Assembly (NCBI GenBank): GCA_937899725.1
Contig: CALCCA010000096.1
Coordinates: 1-64,000, forward strand
Direction: 5' to 3'
DNA length: 64,000 nucleotides
Origin: an uncultured Halomicronema sp.
GTDB taxonomy: Bacteria > Cyanobacteriota > Cyanobacteriia > Phormidesmidales > Phormidesmidaceae
Shown: piece after piece, positions 1-6,457 of the stretch
Layout of the letters: every line of letters begins with the position of its first letter
Numbering within the stretch: the first letter of the stretch is position 1
The notes under the pieces: generated by a model
The model's database searches: none
Told to the model about the DNA's origin: nothing
The model's input: the letters and a program-made list of their open reading frames with translations, nothing else
Position numbers and translations under genes: made by a program

Positions 1-1053
1 GTTTTGCCACTAGAAATTGGCCAACTCACCCAGCTAGAAGAACTCGACATCAGCAGTAACTCGCTGGGAGAACTCCCACCAGAAATCGGGCGATTGGTTC
101 GGCTTAAGAAGCTAACGCTTGGGCACAATCAACTGAACACACTACCGTCAGAGATTACTCAACTCACCCAACTACAGGAGCTTGATATTAGCGGCAGTCA
201 GCTAAGTCAGTTTCCATCAGCACTTCTGAAACTTCCAAATCTGCGGAAGCTCAGCCTTAAAGCGAAAGAACTGACTGCATTGCCGCCAGAACTCTTTCAA
301 CTTACCCAGCTAGAAGAACTCGACATCAGCAATAACCCGTTGAAAGAACTCCCACCAGAAATCGAGCAATTAATTCAGCTTAAGAAACTGAGACTTAATA
401 GAACCCAATTGAGCGTACTGCCGCCAGAAATCGGTCAATTAGTTAAACTGCAGAAGCTACATCTTGGGCACAACCAGCTAAGCACACTACCGCCAGAAAT
501 TGCTCAACTCATTCAACTACAGGAGCTTGACATCAGCGGCAGTCAACTAATTCAGTTTCCATCGGCACTTCTGAAGCTTCCAAATCTGCGGAAGCTTAGC
601 CTCAGGGCGAAAGGACTAACTGCACTGCCGCCGGAACTCTTTCAACTTACCCAGCTAGAAGAACTCGACATCAGCAATAATCCACTGAAAGAACTCCCAC
701 CAGAAATCGGGCAATTGATTCAGCTTAAGAAACTGAGACTCAATAGAATCCAGTTGAGCGTACTGCCGCCAGAAATTGGTCAATTAGTTAAACTGCAGAA
801 GCTAACGCTTGGGTACAACCAGCTGAGCACACTGCCGTCAGAAATTGCTCAACTCATCCAACTACAGGAGCTTGATATCGGCCACAATCGATTGAGTACG
901 TTGCCAAAAAGTATCACCCAACTAAAAAAGCTTGAGGCATTAAATTACAAAAAGAATCCCCTGTCAATTCCTTCCGAAATTCTTGGACAACATGCAATCT
1001 GGCAAGATTCGAGAAAAGTTCAGGAGTTCCTACAACTACTGCTAATGCAGTAA
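1..1053 (+). CDS. Leucine-rich-repeat protein, 5' end outside window
   Basis: The reading frame is open from the first base, so the true start lies upstream. The 350 visible residues are almost entirely 23-residue leucine-rich repeats of the LPxEIxQLxxLxxLxxxxN type. Such repeats form a curved solenoid used for protein binding. The repeats are organised in a larger unit of five (115 residues, about 345 bp): positions about 271-615 and 616 onward are nearly identical in DNA. The protein stops soon after the last repeat with a tail containing PSEILG and KVQEFLQLLL, which resembles the segment that precedes the Roc GTPase domain in cyanobacterial ROCO proteins, but no GTPase follows. It could be a stand-alone LRR protein or a truncated ROCO gene. 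The partner is unknown. Confidence 0.9.
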   Translation, partial: VLPLEIGQLTQLEELDISSNSLGELPPEIGRLVRLKKLTLGHNQLNTLPSEITQLTQLQELDISGSQLSQFPSALLKLPNLRKLSLKAKELTALPPELFQLTQLEELDISNNPLKELPPEIEQLIQLKKLRLNRTQLSVLPPEIGQLVKLQKLHLGHNQLSTLPPEIAQLIQLQELDISGSQLIQFPSALLKLPNLRKLSLRAKGLTALPPELFQLTQLEELDISNNPLKELPPEIGQLIQLKKLRLNRIQLSVLPPEIGQLVKLQKLTLGYNQLSTLPSEIAQLIQLQELDIGHNRLSTLPKSITQLKKLEALNYKKNPLSIPSEILGQHAIWQDSRKVQEFLQLLLMQ

Positions 1054-1855: not shown

Positions 1856-3139
1856 TTAGTCGGTCATCTGGGCAACGTGCTCGGCCCAAGCCTGGTGCTG
1901 CAGCTTCAGATAAGAGACCGTGAAATCTTGCCCCATGCTTGCAGGGAGAACGGTATTTTGCTCTAGCTGTTGCAGGGCATCGAGCAGGCTTTGGGGCAAC
2001 GTTTGCACCGTGCCCGGCGGCAGCGGATCAGCATAAGCATTGTTGTCATAGCGGGGGCCGGGATCGCGTTTGGCGGCAATGCCGTCTAACCCAGCAGCGA
2101 TCACGGCAGCGGGCAGCAGGTAGGGGTTAGCGGCACCGTCACCGAGGCGAAACTCAAAGCGCCCTGCTTCGGGAATGCGGATCATATGGGTGCGATTGTT
2201 GCCGCTGTAGCTGAGGGTATTGGGTGACCAGGTCGCTCCCGATGTCGTGACGGGGGCGTTAATGCGGCGGTAAGAGTTTACCGCCGGATTCGAAAAAGCA
2301 CAGACGGCGGGGCCGGAATGCAGCAAGCCGCCAATGAACTGGTAGCCCAGAGATGACAGCCCCAGCTCACCTTCATCATCGAGGAACAGGTTGGACTGGC
2401 GATCGCTATCCCAAATTGAGAGATGCATGTGACAACCATTCCCCGTCAGATGCGGAAACGGCTTGGGTTTAAAGGTGGCCTGCAGCCCATGCTTCTCGGC
2501 AATGGTTTTGACCATGTATTGAAAAAAGGCCTGGCGATCGGCGGTCACTAAAGCATTGTCAAACGTCCAGTTCATTTCAAACTGACCGTTGGCATCTTCA
2601 TGATCGTTTTGATATGGCCCCCAGCCCAGCGCCAACATGCCATCACAGATTTCGCGAATCAGCTCATACTGTCGCATCAATGCTTGCTGGTCATAGCAGG
2701 GCTTGGCCTGGCGATCGCGGCTATCGGCAATACCGCTGCCGTCTGCGTTCAGCAAAAAATACTCGCATTCCACCCCGGTACAGACCTGATAGCCCAATTC
2801 CGCCGCCTGCGCCAGCACCCGCTTCAGTACCAGACGCGGTGTTTGGAGGATCGGCTCACCATCGACACCGTAAAGATCGGCAGGCATCCAGGCGACGTCA
2901 GGTTGCCAGGGCAGTTGAAACAGGCTGTTGGGGTCAGGAATCGCCAACATGTCGGGATCTGCCGGGGTCATATCGAGCCAAGCGGCAAACCCGGCAAAGC
3001 CCGCCCCGTTGACCGCCATGGTGTCGATGCTTGGCGCCGGCACTAATTTGGCTCGCTGTACGCCAAACAGATCGGTGAAGGAGATGAGGAAATAGTGGAT
3101 ACCGCGATCGCGAGCCAGATCAGAGAGGGCCTGAGTCAT
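1856..3139 (-). CDS. glnT: Type III glutamine synthetase-family enzyme (GlnT-like)
   Basis: This 427-residue member of the glutamine synthetase superfamily would ligate glutamate, or a related acid, to ammonia or an amine using ATP. Visible family motifs are the N-terminal beta-grasp (LISFTDLFGVQRAK), the metal-binding ECEYFLL near residue 120, NGCHMHLSIWD near 235, NPAVNSYRRINAP near 285, and RFEFRLGDGAANPYL near 330. It is closest in style to the GlnT / gln_synth_III group rather than the main GlnA (about 470 residues). Some relatives act on methylamine or other amines, so the acceptor is not fixed by sequence. A perfect GTA-N8-TAC word lies 90-103 bp upstream, which suggests nitrogen control by NtcA. 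The desaturase-hydrolase pair upstream has a similar site. Confidence 0.9.
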   Translation of the reverse strand: MTQALSDLARDRGIHYFLISFTDLFGVQRAKLVPAPSIDTMAVNGAGFAGFAAWLDMTPADPDMLAIPDPNSLFQLPWQPDVAWMPADLYGVDGEPILQTPRLVLKRVLAQAAELGYQVCTGVECEYFLLNADGSGIADSRDRQAKPCYDQQALMRQYELIREICDGMLALGWGPYQNDHEDANGQFEMNWTFDNALVTADRQAFFQYMVKTIAEKHGLQATFKPKPFPHLTGNGCHMHLSIWDSDRQSNLFLDDEGELGLSSLGYQFIGGLLHSGPAVCAFSNPAVNSYRRINAPVTTSGATWSPNTLSYSGNNRTHMIRIPEAGRFEFRLGDGAANPYLLPAAVIAAGLDGIAAKRDPGPRYDNNAYADPLPPGTVQTLPQSLLDALQQLEQNTVLPASMGQDFTVSYLKLQHQAWAEHVAQMTD

Positions 3140-3228
3140 AGGGATAGGGATGAGAAGAGTGGGGCTAGGGAAACAAAATTGACGAGATTGAGGCAGCCCA
3201 ATCTTCTAGCGAGACGTCGCCCCCGTTA

Positions 3229-3242
3229 GTAGCAGACATTAC
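3229..3242 (-). promoter_or_regulatory. NtcA-type binding word upstream of glutamine synthetase
   Basis: The + strand reads GTAGCAGACATTAC, a perfect GTA-N8-TAC. NtcA is the global nitrogen regulator of cyanobacteria and binds this consensus. On the minus strand the best -10-like hexamer (TAGAAG) begins 20 nt downstream; it does not match TAN3T exactly, so this promoter is less complete than the one at 5435-5477. Chance alone gives about one such word per 4 kb, so support comes mainly from sitting before a glutamine synthetase gene. Confidence 0.5.
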
Positions 3243-3439
3243 CAAGCTCACTTGTTCGGCGTGATGTTTTGGAGGATGTTGAGGGGATAGAAAGCCGGGG
3301 CGATCGCGCCCAAGACAACGGAGCTAATCTTATGGCAGTGGTTGAGGCGCTTGAACTGACCGCTGCTCCGCCCCAGTCAGTCGCCTTGCCAGATTTTCTC
3401 CTGGCTAAAGCGCTAGCAACACTTCAGTTTTGAATGAGC

Positions 3440-4462
3440 TTACGCTTGGGGCTGCAGCAATGCCGCGATCGCCTGTCGAATAAACGCTTCATCTTCCGGG
3501 TTTTGATAGGGATTGCCGGCTCGGTGGCCCCACATGGAGGGAATAGAGCGGTACTCAGCATTCGCGATCAGGTCAGCTTCAGCGGCACAGTCGGCGGGCG
3601 TGAAATAGAGATCCGTGTCTGCAGGCATCACCAGCGTTTGCGCCTGAATTGTGCTGAGTGCTTTGGTGTAATCGCCTTGAAAAACAGGTGTATTGCCAAC
3701 GTCACACCGGAGCCAGGTGTCGATCATCGCGATCAGGTTATGAGGGTCGCGCTGGCGATAGCCCGCTTCCCAACTGCGCAGCAGATAGTCCTCCAGCGAG
3801 TCATAGCCAAATTGCCGATAGAGCTGTGCTTTGTAATAGGGTTGCGAAGCGGCCCAACTGGCATAGATGCAGGCATAGGCGCGGTAGCCGCGATCGGGCA
3901 CGCCATCAAATCTACGACCGTTCCACATCGGGTCGGCGGTGAGGGCCGCTCGTAAGCTCCAGAGAAAAATCTTGTTGTGGTCAGTCGTCTTCGCAGTGCC
4001 GCAGATCGCCGCGATCCGCTCCACCTGCTCAGGATAATGGGTGCCCCAGTAGTAAGCCTGCTGCGCCCCCATCGACCAACCGTAGATCAGTGCCAGTTTT
4101 TCCACCCCGAAGACCTGGCGCAACATCTGCTCCTGAGCGCAGATGTTGTCGTAATGGGTGAACCAGAAACCGTCTTCTGCTAGGCCACAGTTCGAGTCGT
4201 TGCTGGGGGAGGTGGAAAGGCCGTTGCCGAGCTGATTCGGAATGATGATGAAGTAGCGGGTCGGGTCGAGAATGCGCTTTTCGCCAATCAGCCAGTCAAT
4301 ATCCGGATGCTGTGCTCCGTAGGAAGTGGGATACAGAATGACGTTGGCGCGATCGCCCGCCAGCTCCCCATAAGTCTGATAAACCAGCGTGGCTTCTGAC
4401 AAAGTGACACCACACTGGAGTTCAAAATCTTTCAGCGTGAATGATGGGGCAGATGTGCTCAT
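3440..4462 (-). CDS. Alpha/beta-fold hydrolase of the MetX-like family
   Basis: This 340-residue alpha/beta hydrolase resembles homoserine O-acetyltransferase (MetX). The early segment LVYQTYGELAGDRANVILYP and the nucleophile elbow GWSMGAQQ (Ser near residue 140) are typical. The likely acid is Asp in MPADTDLYF near 285 and the likely base is His in MWGHRAGNP near 315. The protein lacks clear features that would commit it to homoserine, and many cyanobacterial relatives are uncharacterised, so the acyl substrate is open. Its ATG overlaps the stop of the upstream desaturase gene (ATGA, 4459-4462), so the two are translationally coupled in one operon. The glutamine synthetase follows 300 bp downstream on the same strand. 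Confidence 0.8.
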   Translation of the reverse strand: MSTSAPSFTLKDFELQCGVTLSEATLVYQTYGELAGDRANVILYPTSYGAQHPDIDWLIGEKRILDPTRYFIIIPNQLGNGLSTSPSNDSNCGLAEDGFWFTHYDNICAQEQMLRQVFGVEKLALIYGWSMGAQQAYYWGTHYPEQVERIAAICGTAKTTDHNKIFLWSLRAALTADPMWNGRRFDGVPDRGYRAYACIYASWAASQPYYKAQLYRQFGYDSLEDYLLRSWEAGYRQRDPHNLIAMIDTWLRCDVGNTPVFQGDYTKALSTIQAQTLVMPADTDLYFTPADCAAEADLIANAEYRSIPSMWGHRAGNPYQNPEDEAFIRQAIAALLQPQA

Positions 4463-5409
4463 GAAGCCGCTGGCCCAAAATCGGCCACGACAGCACGATT
4501 CACCGCCACATAGCCCGGAGCCACATAAGCAAAGTGCTGAGAAAGCTCATCGTGAGCGGCTGCCAGCTGGTGAAAGGGGATGGACGGGTAGAGATGATGT
4601 TCCGCGTGGAAGGGCATATTCCACATCATCAGCCTAATCGGCCAAGTGGTGAGGGTGGTGCGAGTATTGGTCAAGGGATTATTCTCATCGGGGCAGCCGG
4701 TGTGTTCAGCAATCAGGATGAAGCGCAGCAGCGGCTGACCAATCGCTAGGGGCAGCACCCAGTACAACAAAAACCAAGGCTGACCGACGGCGATCGAGAG
4801 GGCGATCGCGCCGCCATAGAGCGCCAACTGTAACCAAGTGGATCGCTGCACTTCCTGATAGGCCGTCTCAGGCAAGTAGGGCATGTTTTCAAACTGCCCC
4901 ATAGCGACCTGCCAATGGCCCTTAATCTTGCCAAGCCACCAGGGAATACCGCTCATCACCCAGAGATACTCCGCCTGGGTGGTCGGGATCAAATCGTCCA
5001 GTTCTGGATCTTTACCCGGCACCTTGGTATAGCGATGGTGCCATTTGTGATAGCGCCGATAAAACGTACTGTTGTAGCCCGAGAGCAGACCCGCCAACCA
5101 GCCGACACCGTCGTTGAGACGATTGCTGGCAAAGGCCGAGCGGTGAACGCATTCGTGCACGGCGGCAAACATAGTCGCCAAACTGAGGCCGTAGAGTATC
5201 AAGGCCGGTAGGGCGATCGCCCAGTGTTCTCGCTGAGTTGCCCACAAATAGCCGCTGATGACGATCACAGCCAAATGAGCGGCCAGCTGACTCAATCCTT
5301 TCGCGTTTGAGCGTTCATTCAGACGCTTCAGGTCTGCCGCCGCTAACAGCTGACGCGGATCGCTCGCCTGCCCTTGAGCTGTCGTAGCCGAAACTTCATT
5401 TGCAGCCAT
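4459..5409 (-). CDS. Membrane fatty-acid-desaturase family protein
   Basis: This is an integral-membrane di-iron enzyme of the desaturase/hydroxylase superfamily, about 316 residues. It has three histidine boxes: HECVH in the first third, HKWHH shortly after, and HAEHH near the C-terminus. These are separated by hydrophobic segments (AVIVISGYLW, LPALILYGLSL, ALYGGAIALS, LLYWVLPLAI). Such enzymes introduce double bonds or hydroxyls into acyl chains or isoprenoids; the substrate cannot be read from the sequence. Earlier in-frame ATGs exist at 5439 and 5415. The one at 5439 overlaps the -10 box of a well-formed NtcA-type promoter, so I prefer the ATG at 5409 (MAANEVSATT), with 5415 as an alternative. 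It is the first gene of a two-gene operon with the MetX-like hydrolase. Confidence 0.85.
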   Translation of the reverse strand: MAANEVSATTAQGQASDPRQLLAAADLKRLNERSNAKGLSQLAAHLAVIVISGYLWATQREHWAIALPALILYGLSLATMFAAVHECVHRSAFASNRLNDGVGWLAGLLSGYNSTFYRRYHKWHHRYTKVPGKDPELDDLIPTTQAEYLWVMSGIPWWLGKIKGHWQVAMGQFENMPYLPETAYQEVQRSTWLQLALYGGAIALSIAVGQPWFLLYWVLPLAIGQPLLRFILIAEHTGCPDENNPLTNTRTTLTTWPIRLMMWNMPFHAEHHLYPSIPFHQLAAAHDELSQHFAYVAPGYVAVNRAVVADFGPAAS

Positions 5410-5434
5410 ACCCATCCCCAAAAAACACCTCCCG

Positions 5435-5477
5435 ATCATAAAAGCTCTGAGACGATTGTGGGTGTAATGGCAGCTAC
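5435..5477 (-). promoter_or_regulatory. NtcA-activated-type promoter of the desaturase-hydrolase operon
   Basis: Read on the minus strand, GTAGCTGCCATTAC (5464-5477) is followed after exactly 23 nt by TATGAT (5435-5440). This is the canonical class II NtcA architecture, GTA-N8-TAC, N22-23, TAN3T. Transcription would start near 5428 and leave a very short leader before the chosen ATG at 5409. The site lies just beyond the stop of thiM (5480), in a 70-bp gap where a promoter is needed. The architecture is seen; binding is inferred. Confidence 0.7.
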
Positions 5478-5479
5478 GG

Positions 5480-6289
5480 TTAGTGAGACAGAATGCGTGC
5501 CTGAGCCTCTAAATCGGCTGGCGTCAGGTGGGCCAGGGCATCGATAAAGTGAGGCACGAAGGTACCTGGCCCCTTAGCCTCCTGTCGAGCTAGCTCTCCG
5601 GCGACGCCCATGGTCGCCATCGTGGCCACGGCAGCCACTAACGGCGAGGCCACTCCCCTTCCTCCAGCCCCGACAAACGCCCCCATCAGCGCGGTCGCGG
5701 TGCAGCCCATACCCGTAACCTGAGCCATGACGCGATCGCCGTTCTGCACTTCGACCCACTGTTCAGCACTGATGATGTGATCAACTGGGCCGCTAATCAC
5801 CACTGTCGTGCCAAATTGCTGCGCTAGGGTACGAGCCGCTTCTAGGGCCGCCTCAACGGCTAATATGCTGTCAACTCCGCGCGTTTTGACTGTAGCCTGG
5901 GCCACCGCGCAAATCTCGGAAGCATTGCCACGAATTACGGCGGGTGGGGCGATCGCGAGCAGTTGTTGAGCCGTACGCGTACGCAGCTGAGTGGCTCCGG
6001 CGCCCACCGGATCAAGCATGTAGGGAATCCCCTGTTTACTGGCACGGGTCACGGCCTTTTGCATGGCGACAATCCAGTCGTCGCTGAGGGTGCCGATGTT
6101 GATCACTAACGCTTGGGCCAAGCCCACCATCTCTTCGACTTCGGCGATCGCATGGGCCATGACGGGCGATGCACCGACGGCCAGCAGGGCATTAGCCGTC
6201 AGGTTCATGACCACGTAGTTCGTAATGTTGTGGACGAGGGGATGTTGGGCTCGCACCGTCTCTAAACAGGTGGCATAGTCAGACAGCAT
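5480..6289 (-). CDS. thiM: Hydroxyethylthiazole kinase
   Basis: ThiM phosphorylates 4-methyl-5-(2-hydroxyethyl)thiazole, salvaging the thiazole half of thiamine. The protein is about 269 residues, the usual size. It shows the family start PLVHNITNYVVMNLTANALLAVG-like segment, the AEVEEMV and DPVGAGAT motifs, VIRGNASEI near residue 145, and the C-terminal ATP-site glycine motif VTGMGCTATALMGAF. The open frame extends upstream to 6454, but that extension has no family similarity and holds repeat-like DNA, so the start at 6289 (MLSDYATCLETV) is used. It stands alone here with no thiE or thiD beside it. I looked for a TPP riboswitch upstream and did not find its conserved core. Confidence 0.92.
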   Translation of the reverse strand: MLSDYATCLETVRAQHPLVHNITNYVVMNLTANALLAVGASPVMAHAIAEVEEMVGLAQALVINIGTLSDDWIVAMQKAVTRASKQGIPYMLDPVGAGATQLRTRTAQQLLAIAPPAVIRGNASEICAVAQATVKTRGVDSILAVEAALEAARTLAQQFGTTVVISGPVDHIISAEQWVEVQNGDRVMAQVTGMGCTATALMGAFVGAGGRGVASPLVAAVATMATMGVAGELARQEAKGPGTFVPHFIDALAHLTPADLEAQARILSH

Positions 6290-6335
6290 GGGCAGCAAGG
6301 TGAAGAGTCGCGGCCCGTTTATCCTAGCGGTCTTT

Positions 6336-6353
6336 ATACCGATTCTCTGAGAC
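6336..6353. repeat. Solo end of the 166-bp MITE-like repeat
   Basis: ATACCGATTCTCTGAGAC matches the reverse complement of the right end of the repeats at 43590-43755 and 57817-57982 at most positions. No body of the element is recognisable beside it, so it is either a solo end or a short word that the larger element shares. Confidence 0.35.
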
Positions 6354-6370
6354 AAATCGACAAATTTGGC

Positions 6371-6398
6371 CTGCTCCTCAGCCCCCCTGCTCCTCAGC
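6371..6398. repeat. Short pyrimidine-rich tandem repeat
   Basis: CTGCTCCTCAGC occurs twice, at 6371-6382 and 6387-6398, with a period of 16 nt. It resembles the degenerate short tandem repeats common in cyanobacterial intergenic DNA. Similar C/T-rich runs occur near 14875-14952, 57728-57760 and 61497-61545. Confidence 0.4.
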
Positions 6399-6457
6399 TC
6401 TCCGGCCTTGCCAAGATGGCACCAGGACCGAGCACGAGAAAAATCGCGGCCCAACCG

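Follow-up and report, generated by a model that had tools for sequence, protein, structure and literature searches.

Genes and features of the locus

The window (the whole stretch of DNA that was analysed, 64,000 nucleotides) is cyanobacterial and belongs to a 7.0 Mb genome, G000, which is closest, among named organisms, to Halomicronema and other Nodosilineaceae. It carries a cassette of three genes (Table 1), predicted to encode a membrane di-iron 'desaturase'/hydroxylase (DES), a MetX-like alpha/beta hydrolase (HYD) and a gamma-glutamyl-amine ligase (the ligase). The ORFs of HYD and DES overlap by 4 nt and the ligase gene is the next one. The first ATG of the DES ORF falls within the −10 box TATGAT, so translation probably begins at 5415 or 5409; GGGAGG precedes these candidate starts. 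The upstream thiM gene was considered as a fourth member of the cassette and rejected, its adjacency not being conserved.

Table 1. Features of the window and methylated-amine island of the same genome
Feature	Location	Strand	Characteristics
DES	4459-5439 (open ORF; likely 4459..5415)	minus	Membrane di-iron 'desaturase'/hydroxylase; PF00487
HYD	3440-4462	minus	MetX-like alpha/beta hydrolase, PRK07581 subfamily; NF005757
Ligase	1856-3139	minus	GmaS-family gamma-glutamyl-amine ligase (glnT/TIGR03105), clade A
NtcA-type word GTAGCTGCCATTAC	5464-5477	minus	Upstream of DES
TATGAT	5435-5440	minus	−10 box (TAN3T), N23 after the DES word
Second NtcA-type word GTAATGTCTGCTAC	3229-3242	minus	90-103 nt before the ligase ATG
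Leucine-rich-repeat protein	4-1053		Window edge
ThiM	5480-6454		Hydroxyethylthiazole kinase, upstream of the cassette
Methylated-amine island	G000:C16, locus L253 240-12412		Tmm, Tdm, 174-aa protein

Tmm, trimethylamine monooxygenase; Tdm, TMAO demethylase. Assignments of DES, HYD and the ligase are predictions from sequence.

Distribution of the cassette

In a sample of 292 genomes drawn across the cyanobacterial phylum, HYD is present in 13, and all 13 also encode DES and the ligase (co-occurrence of HYD and ligase, Fisher 8e-21; 9e-13 at the genus level). Eight of the 13 have an uninterrupted DES-HYD-ligase row; in one the ligase gene is divergent and adjoins DES, and in the other four it occupies a separate place in the genome. 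In 80 further DES loci, all taken from named genomes, HYD is directly downstream in about half, and the ligase is also found in the same locus in about 20. The proposal, made by the sequence-only reading, that the three genes form one unit is borne out by this systematic joint presence and by the recurrence and conservation of the gene order in related genomes. Neighbourhood comparison revealed no conserved flanking genes around the cassette, lipid genes included, and the trio is also found on a plasmid of the laboratory cyanobacterium Leptolyngbya sp. BL0902; the cassette therefore seems to be mobile as a block.

In a tree of 103 DES proteins (rooted at midpoint only), most DES without HYD form one clade of the heterocyst-forming Nostocales. 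Because this clade is nested inside the cassette family, these proteins look like the outcome of secondary losses of HYD. In the Nostocales loci L075 and L077, DES without HYD is followed by a gene encoding a bifunctional sterol desaturase/short-chain dehydrogenase. In L061 (399-1369; genome G215), a frameshift interrupts the DES frame; the contig is short, and the break could correspond either to an assembly error or to decay.

NtcA-type sites and other regulators

The two sites described from the sequence are present: a perfect GTA-N8-TAC word followed by N23 and TATGAT before the DES-HYD operon, and a second perfect word, having 12 of 14 bases in common with the first, before the ligase gene. 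The latter has no −10 box at the canonical spacing. Such words alone prove nothing, since they are not enriched: five are found in the window (3.9 expected), and 74 instances of the full promoter layout in the 7 Mb genome. The genome-wide comparison with the reversed pattern was not used as evidence, because this pattern is commoner than the NtcA layout itself.

The evidence comes from conservation. The DES site, including N23-TATGAT, recurs in congeners (G170, L119, L120, L121). Of 59 distinct DES-HYD loci, 19 have a perfect NtcA word at most 260 nt upstream of DES (dinucleotide shuffles: mean 2.0, maximum 6 in 300; reversed word: 3/59), and in 14 of these 19 the word is placed at −64 to −105 relative to the start codon. 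For DES without HYD, the word is found in 5 of 39 loci, not far above shuffles (2.3). Its recurrence upstream of DES across genera rules out a chance word. Only two other clade-A ligases (L215, L216) share the ligase word. The DES site is thus the solid one: comparison across relatives confirmed it and found the ligase site only weakly conserved. The proposed link of the unit with NtcA stands on the words upstream of DES, and activation of the cassette by NtcA may be inferred.

Nodosilinea relatives lack the NtcA word, and many such loci carry a divergent gene encoding a GntR-family regulator instead. A regulator of this family is also encoded by the N-methylglutamate cluster of G005, and TmoR, which controls tmm in Ruegeria, is another (PMC13390433). 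A clean alternative in which GntR replaces NtcA was rejected, as loci of either kind occur and four combine the two.

Relationships of the ligase

The ligase scores 640.8 bits with TIGR03105 (curated cut-off 469.6). Its best PDB match is RhGmaS of Rhodovulum (7cql, 581 bits), and the best match to an ordinary glutamine synthetase reaches 195 bits. A micromolar Km for methylamine and poor activity with ammonium are the enzymatic criteria for a GmaS. The homology with RhGmaS is full-length. Alignment to 7cql shows that the catalytic residues Asp177, Glu186 and Arg312 and the methylamine (MMA) pocket residues Lys30′, Tyr147, Gln175, Glu179 and Asn188 (RhGmaS numbers), named in the structural paper (PMC7948447), are identical in the ligase; all are invariant in 13 cyanobacterial orthologues. 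The genomic partners of RhGmaS differ from those of the ligase, whose GmaS activity is predicted. On these grounds the ligase is classified as a GmaS-family gamma-glutamyl-amine ligase. Its earlier designation as a type III glutamine synthetase was not retained: 'type III' comes solely from what NCBI calls TIGR03105, GSIII/GlnN proteins have about 700 aa (PMC9361551), and the ligase has 427 aa and best matches GmaS and then type I enzymes.

A clade-B ligase (about 50% identity) is found in many relatives devoid of clade-A GmaS, often in an operon with genes encoding an Fe-alcohol dehydrogenase (Fe-ADH) and an aldehyde dehydrogenase (ALDH), and often preceded by an NtcA word at −67 to −88. This operon adjoins DES-HYD in G346, G345 and L142. 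In G000, the Fe-ADH/ALDH pair remains without a clade-B ligase beside it, which may mean that clade A has replaced the latter. Fe-ADH was rejected as an obligatory partner in trans: it is found in G000 and absent from the other clade-A genomes tested.

Relationships of DES and HYD

DES possesses the His boxes HECVH, HKWHH and HAEHH, invariant or nearly so in 16 homologues. Foldseek gave 8xks/8xqw as best matches, AlkB-AlkG (8f6t) with a probability of 0.93 but an E-value of 0.35, and a weak match to SCD1. Given its His boxes and fold matches, DES is a member of the membrane di-iron oxygenase family. Scores with curated DesA/DesB, CrtR and GntB are 36, 39, 37 and 62 bits (cut-offs 380-500). The nearest curated family is thus the arginine hydroxylase GntB (about 61-62 bits, below its cut-off), and MocD, involved in rhizopine catabolism, is among the relatives (about 28% identity). 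GntB and MocD belong to the same superfamily and act on small polar substrates, but identity with DES is low and no ferredoxin gene is found beside DES in the window.

HYD had been described as MetX-like. It is indeed a MetX-like alpha/beta hydrolase but not MetX: it scores 489 bits with NF005757 (PRK07581; cut-off 332), and homoserine acetyltransferase was ruled out (TIGR01392, 111 bits; cut-off 500). Ser130, Asp284 and His313 are invariant among HYD orthologues and fit a catalytic triad. The closest solved structures are 5e4y (MekB-type acetyl-ester hydrolases) and 5d6o (Corynebacterium glutamicum), a subfamily whose members are known as acetyl-ester hydrolases and not as amidases; the partner genes and presumed substrate of HYD differ from theirs.

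Outside cyanobacteria, plasmid-borne relatives of HYD are mostly found in unrelated contexts. On plasmids of Cupriavidus and Paroceanicella (L201, L202), a HYD-DES pair without ligase is accompanied by genes encoding an Fe-alcohol dehydrogenase and a TetR regulator, and in Cupriavidus also a rubredoxin; DES-HYD chemistry therefore need not involve a gamma-glutamyl amide. In Halomicronema sp. CCY15110 (L123, 1025-8817), a second DES paralogue is flanked by two other GS-like ligases, with two PhyH oxygenases nearby, a hint that DES works with gamma-glutamyl ligases.

Link with TMA/TMAO use

Contig C16 of G000 encodes a trimethylamine monooxygenase (Tmm; 787 bits, cut-off 675) and a TMAO-demethylase (Tdm) homologue (612 bits to solved Tdm). 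The latter, whose N-terminus is shorter than in the reference, is below the equivalog cut-off (828 of 1100), its match starting at profile position 153. Other genes of this island encode a binding protein, a PhyH oxygenase, an ammonium-transporter homologue, an Fe-ADH and an aldehyde dehydrogenase; NtcA words are found in the tmm/tdm and amt/Fe-ADH intergenic regions. In genome G121, a divergent tmm adjoins the row tdm, small gene (p174), DES, HYD and GmaS, and the tmm-tdm interval contains an NtcA word. The cassette is thus linked to TMA/TMAO use by position in G121 and by co-occurrence in G000; G121 is the only genome among those examined in which Tmm/Tdm adjoin it. The protein of about 175 aa encoded after the TMAO demethylase (L253 2322-2846 and L067 6795-7325, 39% identity) has no significant Pfam or NCBIfam match. 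No DmmABC was recognised among the annotated genes of L067 and L253.

GmaS normally feeds N-methylglutamate synthase (MgsABC) and N-methylglutamate dehydrogenase (MgdABCD). In the 13 cassette genomes, neither a SoxD-type MgdB nor a stand-alone GXGXG protein (MgsB) was found, only GXGXG proteins of GltB size. The two genomes with the ligase and without HYD, G005 and G060, encode a stand-alone GXGXG protein, and G060 also encodes SoxD. MgsC (at least 60% identity) is present in none of 45 genomes with HYD and ligase and in 4 of 5 with the ligase and no HYD (Fisher 2e-5); weak matches (39-43%) in four HYD genomes were not counted, and the effective number is below 45, many of these genomes being from one family. 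It is chiefly this mutual exclusion of HYD and N-methylglutamate genes that argues for DES and HYD replacing a step of the same pathway.

The Tmm, Tdm and GmaS homologues of G000 are common to the TMA pathway of marine Roseobacter (tmm, tdm, dmmDABC, gmaS-mgsABC, mgdABCD). The cassette genomes differ by the absence of N-methylglutamate synthase and dehydrogenase, in place of which DES and HYD are found, and by NtcA words where Roseobacter has TmaR. The GntR-family regulator beside DES in many relatives is matched by the Roseobacter TmoR, also a GntR protein (PMC13390433).

Proposed pathway and alternatives

The preferred reading, to which a probability of about 0.55 is given, is that the cassette is a nitrogen-controlled module that takes nitrogen from small (methylated) amines, with DES and HYD replacing one or more oxidative steps. 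Genomics gives good support for membership of the cassette in a methylated-amine pathway; what DES and HYD catalyse, and which amine is used, is inferred. Tmm and Tdm would turn TMA/TMAO into monomethylamine, most likely the substrate of the ligase. This substrate is not certain, because GmaS also accepts ethylamine and propylamine (PMC7948447). The ligase would join the primary amine to glutamate, giving gamma-glutamylmethylamide. As a membrane di-iron monooxygenase, DES would oxidise the N-methyl group of this compound, and HYD or spontaneous breakdown would complete the cleavage to glutamine/glutamate and a C1 unit. DES and HYD would thus stand in place of N-methylglutamate synthase/dehydrogenase or, alternatively, of the dimethylamine monooxygenase step. 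The order gamma-glutamylation, oxidation by DES, cleavage by HYD or spontaneously is the most economical scheme. Counting against the preferred reading are the adjacency of Tmm/Tdm to the cassette in a single genome among those examined, the plasmid HYD-DES pairs that lack a ligase, the Nostocales with DES and no HYD, and the kinship of HYD with acetyl-ester hydrolases. A more specific form of the scheme is more tentative: in oxygenic phototrophs, a third and previously undescribed aerobic methylamine route controlled by NtcA, in which DES would oxidatively demethylate gamma-glutamylmethylamide to N-hydroxymethyl- or N-formyl-glutamine and HYD would finish, may lead straight to glutamine.

For aniline, naphthylamine and isopropylamine, gamma-glutamylation is known to come first (PMC11335346). 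The Ipu (isopropylamine), AtdA/TdnQ and NpaA1 (aniline/1-naphthylamine) systems combine, like the cassette, a GS-like ligase, an oxygenase and a hydrolytic enzyme, which are encoded together or needed in turn. The oxygenase of the cassette is a membrane di-iron protein, whereas that of the aniline system is a Rieske dioxygenase, and the hydrolase of the cassette is MetX-like, not an amidotransferase-type enzyme. Within the literature searched, it still holds that no described pathway combines the three families.

DES, perhaps with HYD, could instead act before the ligase, converting dimethylamine to monomethylamine in place of DmmABC; the ligase would then only trap the product, and gamma-glutamylmethylamide would pass to other enzymes. 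The cluster Tmm-Tdm-p174-DES-HYD-GmaS of G121, which is devoid of DmmABC and in which DES is the only other oxygenase, is consistent with this order, as is the absence of DmmDABC from many bacteria having tmm, tdm and gmaS (PMC5520151). It is nevertheless rather improbable, as it gives HYD no role and leaves unexplained why N-methylglutamate genes are missing exactly where HYD and DES are present. Somewhat less probable again is the use of another amine, such as ethylamine, a larger alkylamine or an amino alcohol, by gamma-glutamylation, oxidation and hydrolysis, the Tmm/Tdm linkage being incidental. Two facts argue against it: the ligase fully keeps the MMA-pocket residues, and G000 itself encodes Tmm and Tdm, whose genes adjoin the cassette in G121. 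The ligase-plus-oxygenase layout of the aniline and naphthylamine systems, the glutamylated intermediates of isopropylamine (PMC11335346), the Fe-ADH/ALDH operon of clade B, which in some genomes neighbours DES-HYD, and the DES paralogue flanked by GS-like ligases all fit it.

The sequence-only reading had suggested an acylated or lipid-linked nitrogen compound. Such a pathway, in which DES would desaturate fatty acyl chains, HYD would act as a lipid esterase and the ligase would be an ordinary glutamine synthetase, is very improbable. Only Pfam names point to it; DES is far below the curated acyl desaturase cut-offs and closest to GntB, HYD is closest to small acetyl-ester hydrolases, the ligase is GmaS-like, and conserved lipid genes are lacking nearby. 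All evidence found leads to small methylated amines, which remain the preferred substrates here.

Another cluster of G000 (contig C175; L086, 5928-12671) encodes an agmatinase-family (guanidinase-like) enzyme, another TIGR03105 ligase, HypB and a taurine/sulfonate-type ABC transporter. It is partly conserved in four genomes (L086, L087, L088, L069) and is possibly devoted to guanidine use.

Significance

Organic nitrogen is widely present in the form of methylated amines, whose use has been described mainly in proteobacteria. The cassette supplies candidate genes for the oxidation of dimethylamine or gamma-glutamylmethylamide, for which the known enzymes are missing in many genomes, and makes this long-noted bottleneck (PMC5520151) directly testable. 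If the preferred reading is true, this nitrogen-controlled cassette would make many cyanobacteria, which are primary producers, direct consumers of methylated amines.
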